Below, one piece after another: positions 1,694 through 20,026 of a DNA stretch of 21,318 nucleotides (its first letter is position 1; each line of letters starts with the position of its first letter). Origin of the DNA: a virus; IMG/VR virus record IMGVR_UViG_3300027896_000265, positions 1 through 21,318 of that record. One strand, given 5' to 3'. Under the pieces are notes generated by a model. The model ran no database searches. It saw only the letters and a list, made by a program, of their open reading frames with translations, and was not told the DNA's origin. The translations under genes were made by a program, and so were the position numbers.

Positions 1694-2071
1694 TTAATCT
1701 CCAGTAGATTCAGGTTCAGGTGGCGATATAACTTCTACATAAGCACTATGCAAGTAAGGTATATCATGGAGGGTTTTCTCCATTGGAGCAGAATTAGCTT
1801 TTATTAATTCTATAATAATCATTGTATCTAATTGATGGTATTCTTTCAAGTAGTTTATGGCTATCTTATAGATTCTAAAGATACATTCAGAAGTATCCCA
1901 AAGATAAAATACTTCTTCTTCTATTATTTGTGGTAGTTCTACTTCCTCTTCAAAAGACATCATTGAAAAGATAGAAGCTGCCTCATTAGTTGTTTCTTTT
2001 ACTTTATAATCTTCCCAGTAGGTTCTAGCAAACAAAATATTATTTGCTAGAACTTTACCAGCCTCTATGAG
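1694..2071 (-). CDS. Tail assembly chaperone T part, made as G-T fusion by -1 frameshift
   Basis: This frame has no convincing start of its own; the only candidate is a TTG at 2035 lying within a hairpin. It is open upstream past the G stop and joins the G frame at the heptamer 2077-2071. Slippage there gives a fusion of about 309 residues (184 from G, 125 from this frame) spanning 2622 to 1694. In lambda the gpGT fusion binds the tape measure and recruits tail tube subunits. The T part is acidic (EEEVELPQIIEEEVFYLW), with a YLWDTSE segment that recalls the short T-domain families of siphoviruses, though I cannot prove homology. It ends 3 bp before the tape measure ATG. Position and frame relation carry the assignment. 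Confidence 0.8.
   Translation of the reverse strand, partial: LIEAGKVLANNILFARTYWEDYKVKETTNEAASIFSMMSFEEEVELPQIIEEEVFYLWDTSECIFRIYKIAINYLKEYHQLDTMIIIELIKANSAPMEKTLHDIPYLHSAYVEVISPPEPESTGD
2022..2053 (-). promoter_or_regulatory. 11-bp stem-loop downstream of the frameshift site
   Basis: On the minus strand, GTTCTAGCAAA (2053-2043) pairs perfectly with TTTGCTAGAAC (2032-2022) around a 10-nt loop. The stem starts 17 nt after the slippery heptamer, further than the 5-9 nt usual for stimulatory structures. A pseudoknot or a role for ribosome queuing is possible. It is not followed by a T-run, so it is not an intrinsic terminator. Confidence 0.7.
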
Positions 2072-2622
2072 TTTTTTAGTTCTTCACCTTTAAGGTCAAT
2101 ATTGAAGACTGCATTAGTAATAGTTGTTTGGAGAGATTCTCTAAAGGATGGGTTATCTAAGTACATGTTCAGGAGGACGACTAAACATTCCTCACCATCA
2201 TCCCAAAGAGAATCAATAGGTTTAGCATCTCTAGTATCAGCGATAAGTAAATCTGTTACTTTATCTTTATCGTTTAAGCTAAGAGAAGAATTTTTAATAA
2301 ATAAGACATGGCTCTTATAGAATATATCCATATCTTTAGTTCTTTTATCCGTAGCATCTTCAATAGCTTTATTAAGAAAAGAAGTTTTTTCATCTAGCTC
2401 TTCATAAGATAAACTTGTATCTTCTTTTACTTTAGTTAAATCCTTTAACCAGCGTTCTACTTTAACTGTATTTAATATCTCTTGAAAATTCTTACGAACT
2501 TGATTTAGTTCACTTTCGGTATAAGCTTTTACACCAATAGTAATATTATCTTTAATTCCACCAGTAGCTTGTACTTTATGTTCGGTGAAAGGTTTAGCTG
2601 TTTTTATTGCGATTGTAGCCAT
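2065..2622 (-). CDS. Tail assembly chaperone G-like protein, 185 aa
   Basis: This protein is the upstream partner of the frameshift pair and lies between the major tail protein and the tape measure gene. It starts with a short beta-like stretch (MATIAIKTAKPFTEHKV) and continues as charged helical sequence (about residues 35-115), ending GEELKNS. A strong AGGGGA ribosome site precedes the ATG at 2622, just after the terminator of the major tail protein gene. Chaperones of this type coat the tape measure during tail assembly and are absent from the virion. Lambda gpG is 140 residues, so this one is somewhat long. No signature motif is recognised; the call rests on gene order, size and the slippery site at its 3' end. 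Confidence 0.75.
   Translation of the reverse strand: MATIAIKTAKPFTEHKVQATGGIKDNITIGVKAYTESELNQVRKNFQEILNTVKVERWLKDLTKVKEDTSLSYEELDEKTSFLNKAIEDATDKRTKDMDIFYKSHVLFIKNSSLSLNDKDKVTDLLIADTRDAKPIDSLWDDGEECLVVLLNMYLDNPSFRESLQTTITNAVFNIDLKGEELKNS
2071..2077 (-). promoter_or_regulatory. -1 ribosomal slippery heptamer A AAA AAC
   Basis: On the minus strand the G frame reads CTA AAA AAC TCA TAG, so the heptamer A AAA AAC is in the exact X XXY YYZ register with the stop codon two codons later. Shifting by -1 enters the T frame, which is open to 1694. The pattern matches the canonical -1 slippery motif; lambda uses G GGA AAG at the equivalent site. Confidence 0.85.
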
Positions 2623-2693: not shown

Positions 2694-4163
2694 TTAAGAT
2701 AGAAGAATACTAGATATACCAGTATTTCTAAATTTTACTTCTCTACCAAAGTATTGACCTACTTTAGCTTCTTTAACGTCAGCAAGTTGCAAAGTATTCC
2801 AAGTATAAGTAATATATTTACCTGCACCTGTACCAAATTTTAACTGTACTGTGAAGAAGTTACTAATATTTAAGTCTGGATCAAACTGAGTTCGGTTATT
2901 ATCCATACCAATTAAAGTACCAGTTGCACTACTAGCAGGAGTAGACAGCATAGTATAGGTAAATGTGCTTGTAGTCAAGACAGTTACTTTATAATAACCA
3001 TTATAAATAGCTGCATCAACACCAGTAGCACCTGAAACTATAACATAATCACCAGTTACCATACCATGAGCAGGAGCAGTTACAGTAGCTAAAGTAGCTA
3101 CAAAAGTAATACTAGAAATAGTAAAATTGGTTGCTTCTGCTTCTAACATAGTTACAGTTACATCAGAAGGTGTAGCAGTACTAGCAAAACCTTCTTCACA
3201 ACCTGTTTGATAACGAGATAAGTCACGACCAAAGAAATTAGGAGCAGATAAGTTAGCATGACAGAAAGATTTAGCATAACCACCAACTTTAGCAAGTACT
3301 GTACCTGTAGCTGGAGAAGCAGCAGGAGTAGCACCCATAACATAACTAAAAGTAGTAGTAGATAATACTGTTATTTGAAAGTCACCATTATAAATAGGAT
3401 CAACTGAACCTGAAATATTAACATAACGGTTAGTTGCTAAACCATGTACAGCAGACATAGTAACAGTAGCAACAGTACCTACACGGGTAATAGTAGTAAC
3501 AGTACCAGCAGAAGCTTGAGAAGTAAATACTTCTCCTAAAGGTGCTATTTGAGCAGCTACTATACTTTGTTGTCTAATTGGCGCACCAACTGATTGTATT
3601 TGTGTTCCATAACTAGGAGTTAAAACAGCACTTTCAATAGGTGAATAAGCATTACCTTTTAGAGCAAACTTAAGTCTAGGTACATCACCGATATTAGCTG
3701 TAACATCTAATATAGCTTGAACACCATAAAACTGAATTAACTTTTGGTTAACAGCATTTTGTGCAGTAGTTTTTCTATAATCAATAGAAAGAGTTAAAGG
3801 ATTCATAGTAGAGTTAGTATATAATACTGAACCATCACCATTAACTGTACCAGTACCACCAGAAGCTTGTAACCAATCTGATAAAGGAGCATTAATTAAA
3901 GTTAAACTTGGATTTAAACTACCTAGAATTTGTTGTGGTGTTTCTAAGGTAACATCAGCATAACTATCTTTTTGATAAGTTACTTCATTACGACTATTAG
4001 AATCACCTAAATAAAGTAAAGCACCAGTTACATAAGTAACAGCACCAGTTAAAGTAGTTGCAGCCACAACATCAGTACCAATTGGTGCAAGATATACACC
4101 AGCAGTAGCTTCTTGTGACGAAAATAGAACTACGTTCTTTTCATGAAATTTAATTACTGCCAT
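2694..4163 (-). CDS. Major tail tube protein (lambda gpV-like) with two Ig-like insertions, 489 aa
   Basis: The protein is placed after the tail terminator and before the G/GT pair, where siphoviruses encode the tube subunit. The outer parts (about 1-215, 290-345 and 415-489) form the presumed core, with segments such as EVTYQKDSYADVTLETPQQ. Two copies of a domain of about 65-70 residues interrupt it at about 219-290 and 345-415. Each carries an HGL/HGM, then YNG, then VTVLTTSTFTYTM and ATGT pattern seen in many phage virion proteins as a beta-sandwich decoration. The insertions explain why it is about twice the usual tube-protein size. Its ATG is 5 bp after the stop of the small ORF upstream, and a strong terminator follows. 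The core fold is inferred from position; the duplicated domains are clear from sequence. Confidence 0.82.
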   Translation of the reverse strand: MAVIKFHEKNVVLFSSQEATAGVYLAPIGTDVVAATTLTGAVTYVTGALLYLGDSNSRNEVTYQKDSYADVTLETPQQILGSLNPSLTLINAPLSDWLQASGGTGTVNGDGSVLYTNSTMNPLTLSIDYRKTTAQNAVNQKLIQFYGVQAILDVTANIGDVPRLKFALKGNAYSPIESAVLTPSYGTQIQSVGAPIRQQSIVAAQIAPLGEVFTSQASAGTVTTITRVGTVATVTMSAVHGLATNRYVNISGSVDPIYNGDFQITVLSTTTFSYVMGATPAASPATGTVLAKVGGYAKSFCHANLSAPNFFGRDLSRYQTGCEEGFASTATPSDVTVTMLEAEATNFTISSITFVATLATVTAPAHGMVTGDYVIVSGATGVDAAIYNGYYKVTVLTTSTFTYTMLSTPASSATGTLIGMDNNRTQFDPDLNISNFFTVQLKFGTGAGKYITYTWNTLQLADVKEAKVGQYFGREVKFRNTGISSILLS

Positions 4164-14361: not shown

Positions 14362-16062
14362 ATGTATCCAATAGAATATAAAGATAGTGTAAGCGACCAA
14401 ACAACTACAACAGGTACAGGTACAGTAACTATTACTGGAATTGCTAATACAGGTTGTCGAACTATAGCAAGCGCACATACAACTGGTGCGACTATTCATT
14501 ATCGTATACAAGATTCAACTAACACTAATTGGGAAGTTGGTGAAGGGGTTTGGACATCTTCAGGTTCTACTTTAACAAGAGTAACTATTTCTGCTTCGAG
14601 TAATAGTGGTAGTTTAGTTAGTTTTGCTTCTGGAACTAAAACTGTTATGACAGGTATGGGTTCTACTGATATACAATCTCTATGTACAAGAACTTTACCT
14701 ATAACTATAACAGGAACTCTCCTAAGCAACCCAAATATAACTTTTAGTTCTCCAAGAACAATAGTAGTAAATAATATTCTTTATTGGTTTCCTAATGAGA
14801 GATTTTCATATGATTATACTGAACTAACTCCTATGCCAGTAGGACGTACTATAGGCCTAACTACTTTTAATTCTTCTTCCCCTGCACTAGATACATTAAG
14901 TTTAGAGCAATGTCCTTTACTTACCTCTGTTAATCTATCTACAGCTAAGTATATATATTCTGTATTGTTAGATCAACTTCCTATATTAACTACTATAAAC
15001 TTTTCTTCTGCTATAGGATTTAATGACATAACGTTATCTTATCTTCCTAGCATAACATCAGTGAGTTTTTCTTCTATGATAGAGATTATCTATAATCTTA
15101 GATTAAGTTTTTTATCTACTTGTACTTCTATTTCTTTCCCTGTTTTAGTTAATAGCCCAATTACTATAGATCATTTTCCTCTACTAACTTCAATATATTT
15201 TCCCTTATTACAGTATAGTAATGATTTATTTATATCCTATTGTGATATTTTAACAAGTATATCTTTTCCATCTTTAACTACAGGAGAAAGTATAAATATA
15301 ATTTATAATAATAGTTTAACTTCTATTTCTTTTGCTGTTCTAACAGCTTGTACAGGAGATAGTATTATACAATTTTGTCCTCTTCTTACTTCTATTTCTG
15401 CTCCTTCCCTTCTTTATACAACTCAATCTCTAACCATACAAGAAAATGCTACTTTAGCTACTATAAGTTTCCCAGCTTTAGTTGCCTTAAATAATGGTAT
15501 AATTATAGATTTTTTACCTTTATTATCTTCACTTAGTCTTCCTTCTCTTACTTATGCTAATATTTTAATGATAGGTGATATTTATGAAGCTACTAATAAT
15601 CTACCACTTTTAACATCTATATCTTTTCCTGTTCTTGATTCTATAGTTAGTTTTAGTTGTGGTGGTAAATCTATAACAAGTTTTTATTTACCACTTTTAA
15701 CAAAAATAGATTCTTTTCTTATTTATGATACTTTAGCTACTTCTATAAGTTTACCAGCACTACTACACCTAGGTACTTTTGACCTTCTACATTTGAATAC
15801 TACTCCTTCATCAGCAACAACAGTTAGTTTTAATTCAGGTTTACTTTCTGTAACTGGTTCGATACAAATAGATTATCCATTAACTCAAGTATCTGTTGAT
15901 GGTATATTAGCTTCTTTGGTAGCATTAAATGGCTCAAGCGGAACTACTTTATTTAATTCAGGTGTAGTTGCACTAGAGGGTTTATGTTCTGCGCCTAGTT
16001 CTACTGGCTACACTAATGCAGCCACCCTTGTTGCTCGTGGCGTTACCGTTACAACAAACTAA
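14362..16062 (+). CDS. Tail fibre-like protein with leucine-rich solenoid, 566 aa
   Basis: Residues 1-105 are a virion-attachment type domain common at the N-terminus of phage fibres: YPIEYKDSVSDQTTTTGTGT, then RIQDSTNTNWEVGEG, TLTRVTI, SASSNSG and FASGTKTVMTGM. Residues about 185-470 form 11 or more repeats of 22-23 residues with the core LTSISFPSL, like BspA/receptor-L leucine-rich solenoids, so ligand contact is likely there. Residues about 505-566 (VDGILASLVALNG, then VVALEGLCSAPSSTGYTNAA) form a separate C-terminal module. The start has AAAGG 6 nt upstream. Its product probably recognises a host surface structure; the ligand is unknown. Codon use is as in its neighbours. Confidence 0.8.
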   Translation: MYPIEYKDSVSDQTTTTGTGTVTITGIANTGCRTIASAHTTGATIHYRIQDSTNTNWEVGEGVWTSSGSTLTRVTISASSNSGSLVSFASGTKTVMTGMGSTDIQSLCTRTLPITITGTLLSNPNITFSSPRTIVVNNILYWFPNERFSYDYTELTPMPVGRTIGLTTFNSSSPALDTLSLEQCPLLTSVNLSTAKYIYSVLLDQLPILTTINFSSAIGFNDITLSYLPSITSVSFSSMIEIIYNLRLSFLSTCTSISFPVLVNSPITIDHFPLLTSIYFPLLQYSNDLFISYCDILTSISFPSLTTGESINIIYNNSLTSISFAVLTACTGDSIIQFCPLLTSISAPSLLYTTQSLTIQENATLATISFPALVALNNGIIIDFLPLLSSLSLPSLTYANILMIGDIYEATNNLPLLTSISFPVLDSIVSFSCGGKSITSFYLPLLTKIDSFLIYDTLATSISLPALLHLGTFDLLHLNTTPSSATTVSFNSGLLSVTGSIQIDYPLTQVSVDGILASLVALNGSSGTTLFNSGVVALEGLCSAPSSTGYTNAATLVARGVTVTTN

Positions 16063-18721: not shown

Positions 18722-20026
18722 ATGTCCTTACTTTTACTTATAACTTCTTTTGCACCAGCTCCAGTTACATTAACTTCTACTAATGTTTCTAGTTCTGTTG
18801 CTTTAAGTAGTGTAAGTTTAATAGGATCAACTACTAATTTAGTAGCTGCTAATGTGGCAGCTACTTTAATTCTTTCTTCTGTGAGTTTAGCTGCTAATAA
18901 TTCTCTAGTTTTAGCAAATACAAGCCAAACTGACATACTTTCTACAGTAAATTTAGTAACTCAATCTACTTTAAGTCTAGCTAACCTATCTCAAGCTAAT
19001 ACTTTAACAACTACAGTTATTTCTGTAGCTATAAATCTTATTTTAGCTAGTTTAACTCAAGCAAATACTCTTGGAACTGTTAATTTAACTCAACAAAACA
19101 GATTAACTTTAGCTAATTTAGCTGAAGCAGTTACTTTAAGTACTGTAATTTTAACTCAACAAAATAGTTTAGTTCTAGCAAATACTACTCAAAGTAATAT
19201 TTTAACTAGTCCAACTTTAGTACAACAAAATAATTTAGCTCTTTCTAATCTTAGCCAAGCAAATACATTAGCAACTGTAGGTTTAACTCAAGCAAGTCTA
19301 TTAAGTTTAGTTTCTCTTACACAAACTAGTATACTTTCGACAGTTATCCTTAATACAATTCTTAGTTTATCTTCTAATAATCTAAGCCAAGTTGATATTC
19401 TTACAAGTCCTAGTTTAATCCAACAAAACTTCTTAAGTTTACTTAATATAGCTGAAGCTAATACTATTTCTGTTGTAACTTTAAGCCAACAAAATAACTT
19501 AACTATTCAAAGTGTTACTGAAAGTAGAAGTTTAAGTTCTCCTACCTTATCTACAGCTAATACTTTACTTTTAGCTAACTTAGCTCAAGCAGAGGGACTT
19601 TCTGCTGTTAATATAACAATGAACTTAACTTTATCTCCTAACTCTATTATAGAGTCAGAGACTTTAGGTACAGTTAATTTAATACAAAACTTAGTTCTTA
19701 ATATTAATAGCTTACTAGAATCTAGGGTATTACAAAATGTAAATTTACAACAAGCAAATACTTTAGCTATAGGAAATATATATTTACAATCTAACTTAAC
19801 TAATGTAAACTTGGCTCAAGATTATATATTATTTGCTAATAATATACTTCAATCTATTAGTCTTGATAATATAGTTTTACCTCCTGAAATCTTTATATTA
19901 AAGATAGAAGAAAAAGTTATCTATATGATAAATATAGGAAATGAAATAATAGTTATGAATGTAACTCAATCTGGCATAGTAGGAGTTCCTTCTACACCTG
20001 ATAAAATTAATGTAGTATCTGAATAA
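18722..20026 (+). CDS. Virion-type protein of seventeen 22-residue repeats, 434 aa
   Basis: After residues 1-9, residues 10-384 split into 17 consecutive repeats. Sixteen are exactly 22 residues and one (32-54) is 23. The consensus is roughly L.LANLSQANTLSTV.LTQQ, with alternating short strands and polar turns, suggesting a beta solenoid or triple-stranded fibre shaft. Residues 385-434 (PPEIFILKIEEKVIYMINIG onward) are different and may form a cap. Similar Leu/Gln/Ala/Thr repeats occur in phage structural proteins, without known function. The predicted protein has almost no charge in the repeats. It follows the 501-aa protein by 3 bp. It is coherent in frame throughout despite repeated DNA, so selection keeps the register. 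Confidence 0.78.
   Translation: MSLLLLITSFAPAPVTLTSTNVSSSVALSSVSLIGSTTNLVAANVAATLILSSVSLAANNSLVLANTSQTDILSTVNLVTQSTLSLANLSQANTLTTTVISVAINLILASLTQANTLGTVNLTQQNRLTLANLAEAVTLSTVILTQQNSLVLANTTQSNILTSPTLVQQNNLALSNLSQANTLATVGLTQASLLSLVSLTQTSILSTVILNTILSLSSNNLSQVDILTSPSLIQQNFLSLLNIAEANTISVVTLSQQNNLTIQSVTESRSLSSPTLSTANTLLLANLAQAEGLSAVNITMNLTLSPNSIIESETLGTVNLIQNLVLNINSLLESRVLQNVNLQQANTLAIGNIYLQSNLTNVNLAQDYILFANNILQSISLDNIVLPPEIFILKIEEKVIYMINIGNEIIVMNVTQSGIVGVPSTPDKINVVSE
18749..19873 (+). repeat. Tandem repeat array, 66-bp period, inside the repeat-protein gene
   Basis: DNA corresponding to the 17 protein repeats. The nucleotide copies have diverged in the third position and share short tracts such as actcaacaaaa. 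The regular protein period with loose DNA identity points to old expansion followed by selection. Confidence 0.8.

Follow-up and report, generated by a model that had tools for sequence, protein, structure and literature searches.

A predicted -1 ribosomal frameshift between two tail assembly chaperone frames, G and T, in an uncultured phage and its relatives

The window analyzed here, which at 21,318 bases is an entire IMG/VR record, carries on its minus strand a group of tail genes in the order tail tube, G, T and tape measure. The tape measure protein gene (1-1690; Pfam TMP_3, 6.9e-17; PHROG tape measure, 3.6e-23) is truncated by the contig end, and its N-terminal 563 aa are present. The ORF directly upstream of G (2694-4163, minus strand) received no tail tube name from Pfam, and is identified as the probable major tail tube protein by its position and by homologues that precede G in L003, L006, L009 and L007. 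G itself (2065-2622, minus strand), a short tail assembly chaperone ORF of 185 aa, was placed between these two genes with its homologues aligned, and the T part (1694-2077, minus strand) overlaps its end in the -1 frame, comprising 125 residues when counted from the codon after the slippery heptamer and belonging to an 18-sequence family alignment. In terms of the functional class of G and G-T chaperones, the locus shows both a short ORF with an overlapping -1 ORF between the tail tube and tape measure genes and an in-register slippery heptamer in the overlap that is conserved in relatives. In addition, a hairpin resembling a terminator (CCTCCTACTAT..ATAGTAGGAGG, ending in a T8 tail) was observed on the minus strand at 2644-2683, in the interval that separates G from the tail tube-like ORF; it is also present in L003 and could lower the amount of G relative to the tail tube.

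The final codons of G read CTA AAA AAC TCA TAG, placing A AAA AAC (2071-2077, minus strand) in the exact -1 register (X XXY YYZ) of G, with the TAG stop (2065-2067, minus strand) one codon past the heptamer. A previous sequence-only reading of this DNA had reported this register, together with a -1 frame open to 1694 and lacking a credible start, and the sequence bears out all three points. The T frame extends from stop to stop over 1694-2083, and its first ATG, GTG or TTG is a TTG at 2035. This TTG lies inside the downstream hairpin, 42 nt from the start of the heptamer and 14 codons beyond the slip, and inspection by eye showed no Shine-Dalgarno (SD) sequence upstream of it. The predicted G-T fusion of 184 + 125 = 309 residues likewise agrees with the product of about 309 residues that had been expected beside the 185-residue G. 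Between the window and L003, the codon position of T with the most changes is the third (20/15/31), indicative of a protein-coding pattern of change.

As AAAAAAC is not rare in the window (6 found against 9 expected), the presence of the heptamer alone is little evidence, and its place and register are what count. A scan of window ORF pairs that overlap or adjoin each other found an in-register -1 heptamer in the G/T pair only. In seven related G ORFs, XXXYYYZ heptamers occupy 6 of 1194 in-register slots (approximately 0.5%) and the five strong heptamers none of the 1194, and each G/T overlap offers about 3-11 slots. A second AAAAAAC in G (2384-2390) was rejected as a slip site, being out of slip register and not kept in L003.

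One close relative, L003, was found by G (78%), and further loci were found by means of a major capsid protein alignment; searching genome contigs with portal and capsid alignments gave no relatives, and searching phages by tblastn with G, the capsid, the tail tube protein and a family-A T gave no matches. The junctions of the G-T loci were read without requiring any heptamer sequence beyond XXXYYYZ. An in-register heptamer was observed at the G/T overlap in the window and in seven other lineages (identified through homology of the capsid or of G), namely A AAA AAC in the window, L003, L006, L013, L015, L018 and L019, and G GGA AAC in L009. The -1-frame peptide directly after the slip follows the pattern KL(I/M/T)xxG in 8/8 junctions. 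In all but L003, which has ATG in place of ATA inside this peptide, it precedes every canonical start. The L003 junction (L003:5546-5560) contains TAATG in CTAATGG, with a T-frame ATG overlapping the G stop, and retains the heptamer, the upstream SD-like element and the hairpin despite this ATG. L003 is the only one of the eight with ATG, GTG or TTG at the junction, the others having ATA, ATT or ACT, and in these others the first canonical start to follow is 42-294 nt from where the heptamer begins or, in L015, missing altogether. Across the junctions, T has no start of its own, with the TAATG of L003 as the one exception.

Downstream of the heptamer, a 9-nt spacer (UCAUAGAGG; 2062-2070, minus strand), defined by folding, leads to a predicted stem-loop (2015-2061, minus strand). 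Its lower stem (2056-2061 with 2015-2020) has 6 bp, CUGGUA/UACUGG, including two G-U pairs, and is separated by a 2/1-nt internal loop from an upper 14-bp helix (2040-2053 with 2022-2035) that includes one G-U pair and is closed by the loop at 2036-2039. Folded alone, the hairpin has an energy of -22.2 kcal/mol (z -5.4; 0/200 shuffles), and by folding stability it ranks 1/21,270 among the 48-nt windows of the strand. The perfect 11-bp hairpin of the sequence-only reading is therefore real, as the core only of a 14-bp helix standing on a 6-bp lower stem, and the 17-nt spacer given there shrinks to 9 nt once the structure is counted from that stem. Most published frameshift spacers measure 5-9 nt, with overlooked lower stems as a known cause of seemingly long ones (PMC5009743); the spacer, formerly regarded as unusually long, falls in the usual 5-9 nt. 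The roadblock or pseudoknot role proposed on account of the long spacer was dropped once the lower stem was recognized, because a 9-nt spacer leaves no need for such alternatives. L003 has the same stem-loop and spacer, and all three stem differences between it and the window (U-A to U-G, A-U to G-U and U-G to U-A) retain pairing. Folding did not find the hairpin in L096, the next nearest relative, and among the lineages tested it is common only to the window and its nearest relative, L003. The check suggested earlier, whether relatives keep the heptamer and the hairpin, has a different answer for each: the heptamer is present in 7/7 other lineages, the hairpin only in L003.

Two features had escaped the earlier reading: the T-frame ATG of L003 and an SD-like AGGTGA (2084-2089, minus strand), which stands 6 nt before the heptamer with its GG 9 nt before. 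The published SD distance for -1 frameshifting is 9-14 nt (PMC5009743). The best anti-SD duplex directly before the heptamer in the window has an energy of -8.5 kcal/mol, equalled or bettered at only 3% of same-phase G positions. The window junction has both this element and the downstream hairpin, and an upstream SD-like element is common among relatives, L009 being without one. Over 39 junction clusters, a set mostly picked by a pattern containing the heptamer and LIEAG, mean anti-SD pairing is strongest 5-7 nt ahead of the heptamer (-4.2 vs -1.3 kcal/mol), at the position of the window element, and in seven capsid-derived junctions the corresponding means are -5.3 vs -0.9. The downstream fold has z < -2 at 14 of the 39 junctions, where about 1 is expected. 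SD pairing lies in the top tenth of its own G gene at 14/39 junctions (p = 1.3e-5), and where SD pairing is weak the downstream fold tends to be stronger (Mann-Whitney p = 0.039; Spearman against fold z, p = 0.30 and not significant for SD energy, p = 0.009 for SD rank), all of these p-values being too small since the 39 clusters are mutually related.

Neither G nor T gave a significant Pfam or PHROG match, and against Phage_TAC_4 and DUF1799 (PF08748, PF08809) neither gave a profile match above the curated cut-off. The G of a relative, L040, matched TAC_4 weakly (E 0.02), below the curated cut-off. Homology of the window T to DUF1799 was considered and rejected: the 94.8% obtained rested on the shared KKLIEAG, a motif already selected by the 20-nt pattern described below, and fell to 3% (hhalign) when the motif was left out. 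The structural models of G and T have pLDDT values of 87 and 83, respectively. The T model is confident and helical, with the junction residues included in helix 1 (residues 2-36), 14 residues of which would be removed if T started at TTG 2035. The G model had no match in the PDB at E <= 0.001, the HK97-type chaperone fold included, and its weak matches in BFVD include annotated chaperones, none of them significant; a fold search of the T model against the PDB gave no match.

We consider it very probable that a programmed -1 ribosomal frameshift produces two tail assembly chaperones, G and G-T, from one gene start. The joining of G and T by -1 slippage, as previously proposed, is upheld by the conservation of the heptamer, its register and the -1-frame peptide in independent contigs. 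Most ribosomes would terminate on the TAG that follows A AAA AAC, releasing G of 185 aa, whereas a minority would slip back one base on the heptamer, bypass the TAG and complete a G-T fusion of approximately 309 residues; both the slippage and its rate are what we infer from the sequence. The SD-like element, which would pair with 16S rRNA as the ribosome translates, may work jointly with the stem-loop in the manner of dnaX. G and G-T may direct the assembly of the tail tube on the tape measure protein as their lambda counterparts do; on this analogy, G would coat the tape measure protein and tail tube subunits would be recruited by the T part of the fusion.

Alternatively, ribosomes could terminate and reinitiate at or near the G stop and so make T separately, from the ATG of L003, the ATA of the window or TTG 2035; AGGTGA would then be the ribosome binding site of T. 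Coupled starts can indeed be served by SD sequences close to the end of a gene (PMC5009743), and coupled initiation of T is possible at the TAATG of L003; however, a canonical start at the junction is confined to that one of eight lineages, the others having the non-canonical triplets given above, and even L003 retains the heptamer. The SD-like element is positioned at a frameshift distance rather than an initiation distance, and the conserved -1-frame residues begin upstream of the start position, and we rate reinitiation as very improbable, though it is the least improbable of the rivals.

A single-base sequencing or assembly error, or decay of the gene, might also have split one true ORF, and a homopolymer at the split in a metagenome contig invites this suspicion. 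We give it hardly any credence, as the split recurs at the same codon in contigs of many different samples and, in L009, at GGGAAAC, and as T retains its protein-coding pattern of change. Slippage of RNA polymerase on the run of six A, generating mixed mRNAs that encode the fusion, is rated only slightly above such an error and below reinitiation: six A is a short run for polymerase slippage, the same junction occurs at GGGAAAC in L009 with no A6 run, the register and the final C are conserved, and the spacing of the SD-like element and the hairpin suits stimulators of the ribosome.

The programmed ribosomal frameshift favored here has several known counterparts. Slippage by -1 near a gene end, yielding a short and a long tail helper protein, is a well-known device. 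The frameshift type is thus already known, and what is new, as judged by the profile searches, is a putative chaperone family without Pfam or PHROGs recognition. The locus resembles lambda G / G-T in having a short ORF and a -1 overlapping ORF between the tail tube and tape measure genes and an in-register slippery heptamer near the G end (PMC5009743), and differs from it in that A AAA AAC is not the lambda heptamer and no similarity is detectable via Pfam or PHROGs. The G : G-T ratio is about 30:1 in lambda (PMC5009743), and frameshifting of 6-7% has been measured in HK97-like chaperone genes (PMC3711429). The two heptamers of the window family also occur, as a likeness of heptamer and not of compared sequence, at the chaperone junctions before the tape measure gene in phiCbK (AAAAAAC) and Colossus (GGGAAAC) (PMC3556154), and in gp12/gp13 of Acinetobacter phage Loki, where AAAAAAC adjoins the stop codon (PMC5313236). 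Escherichia coli dnaX likewise combines an A-rich heptamer, an upstream SD-like element and a downstream stem-loop, and the window has the dnaX-type arrangement of an SD-like GG 9 nt upstream and a stem-loop after a 9-nt spacer, the stem-loop being conserved only in L003; the heptamer differs (A AAA AAC vs A AAA AAG of dnaX), and in the window the frameshift product is the longer one. Counting against the frameshift reading, A_AAA_AAC shifts less well than A_AAA_AAG in E. coli (PMC5009743). The present locus adds a frameshifted tail chaperone family that gene callers would split or truncate. The stable parts of its junction are the heptamer and the -1-frame junction peptide, with the downstream hairpin as a variable extra, and this distinction may aid the annotation of tail chaperones in uncultured phages.

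An exact 20-nt pattern of the junction, AAAAAACTNATAGARGCNGG, was found in 73 stretches in IMG/VR, far above the handful expected by chance according to our own estimate from base counts. In 63 of the 72 stretches scanned outside the earlier loci, it lies in register where a G-like ORF meets a T-like ORF in the -1 frame; L076 is apparently a chance match. This 20-nt junction (L028-L099) occurs in at least three chaperone families, although, as the pattern requires the heptamer and LIEAG, it reveals recurrence across families and not frequency. Among the pattern members tested with Pfam, L042 and L028 belong to Phage_TAC_4 (PF08748) with DUF1799 (PF08809), and L033 to the XkdN-like Phage_TAC_5 (PF08890); they share the 20-nt junction and KKLIEAG with the window, whose G and T match neither family. 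Tentatively, and with more doubt than confidence, we suggest that the junction may be a recurrent cassette, composed of the SD-like element, A AAA AAC, a stop within two codons and the LIEAG codons, in at least three chaperone families without other recognizable relatedness, in which the post-slip residues might serve the fusion alone, as a functional hinge or the beginning of a helix, and that phages may lean on either the upstream SD-like element or a downstream hairpin.

The cultured Synechococcus phage S-CBS1 (L100:1201-1539) has the same heptamer at GAAAAAACTGATTGG, and its annotation divides the junction into two genes, the T start being put downstream. A different organization was observed in L007 (18229-19432) and L008 (18274-19477), with a portal at 57%, where a 236-aa ORF precedes a separate G-like ORF (34%) with no overlap. 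The C-terminal 56 residues of the 236-aa ORF resemble T (hhalign 84.5%), and this arrangement is apparently a different way of making both activities without a frameshift overlap. Elsewhere in the window, two repetitive proteins encoded on the plus strand (14362-16062 and 18722-20026) carry LTSISFP-like and LSQANTL-like repeats and are probably receptor-binding or structural.
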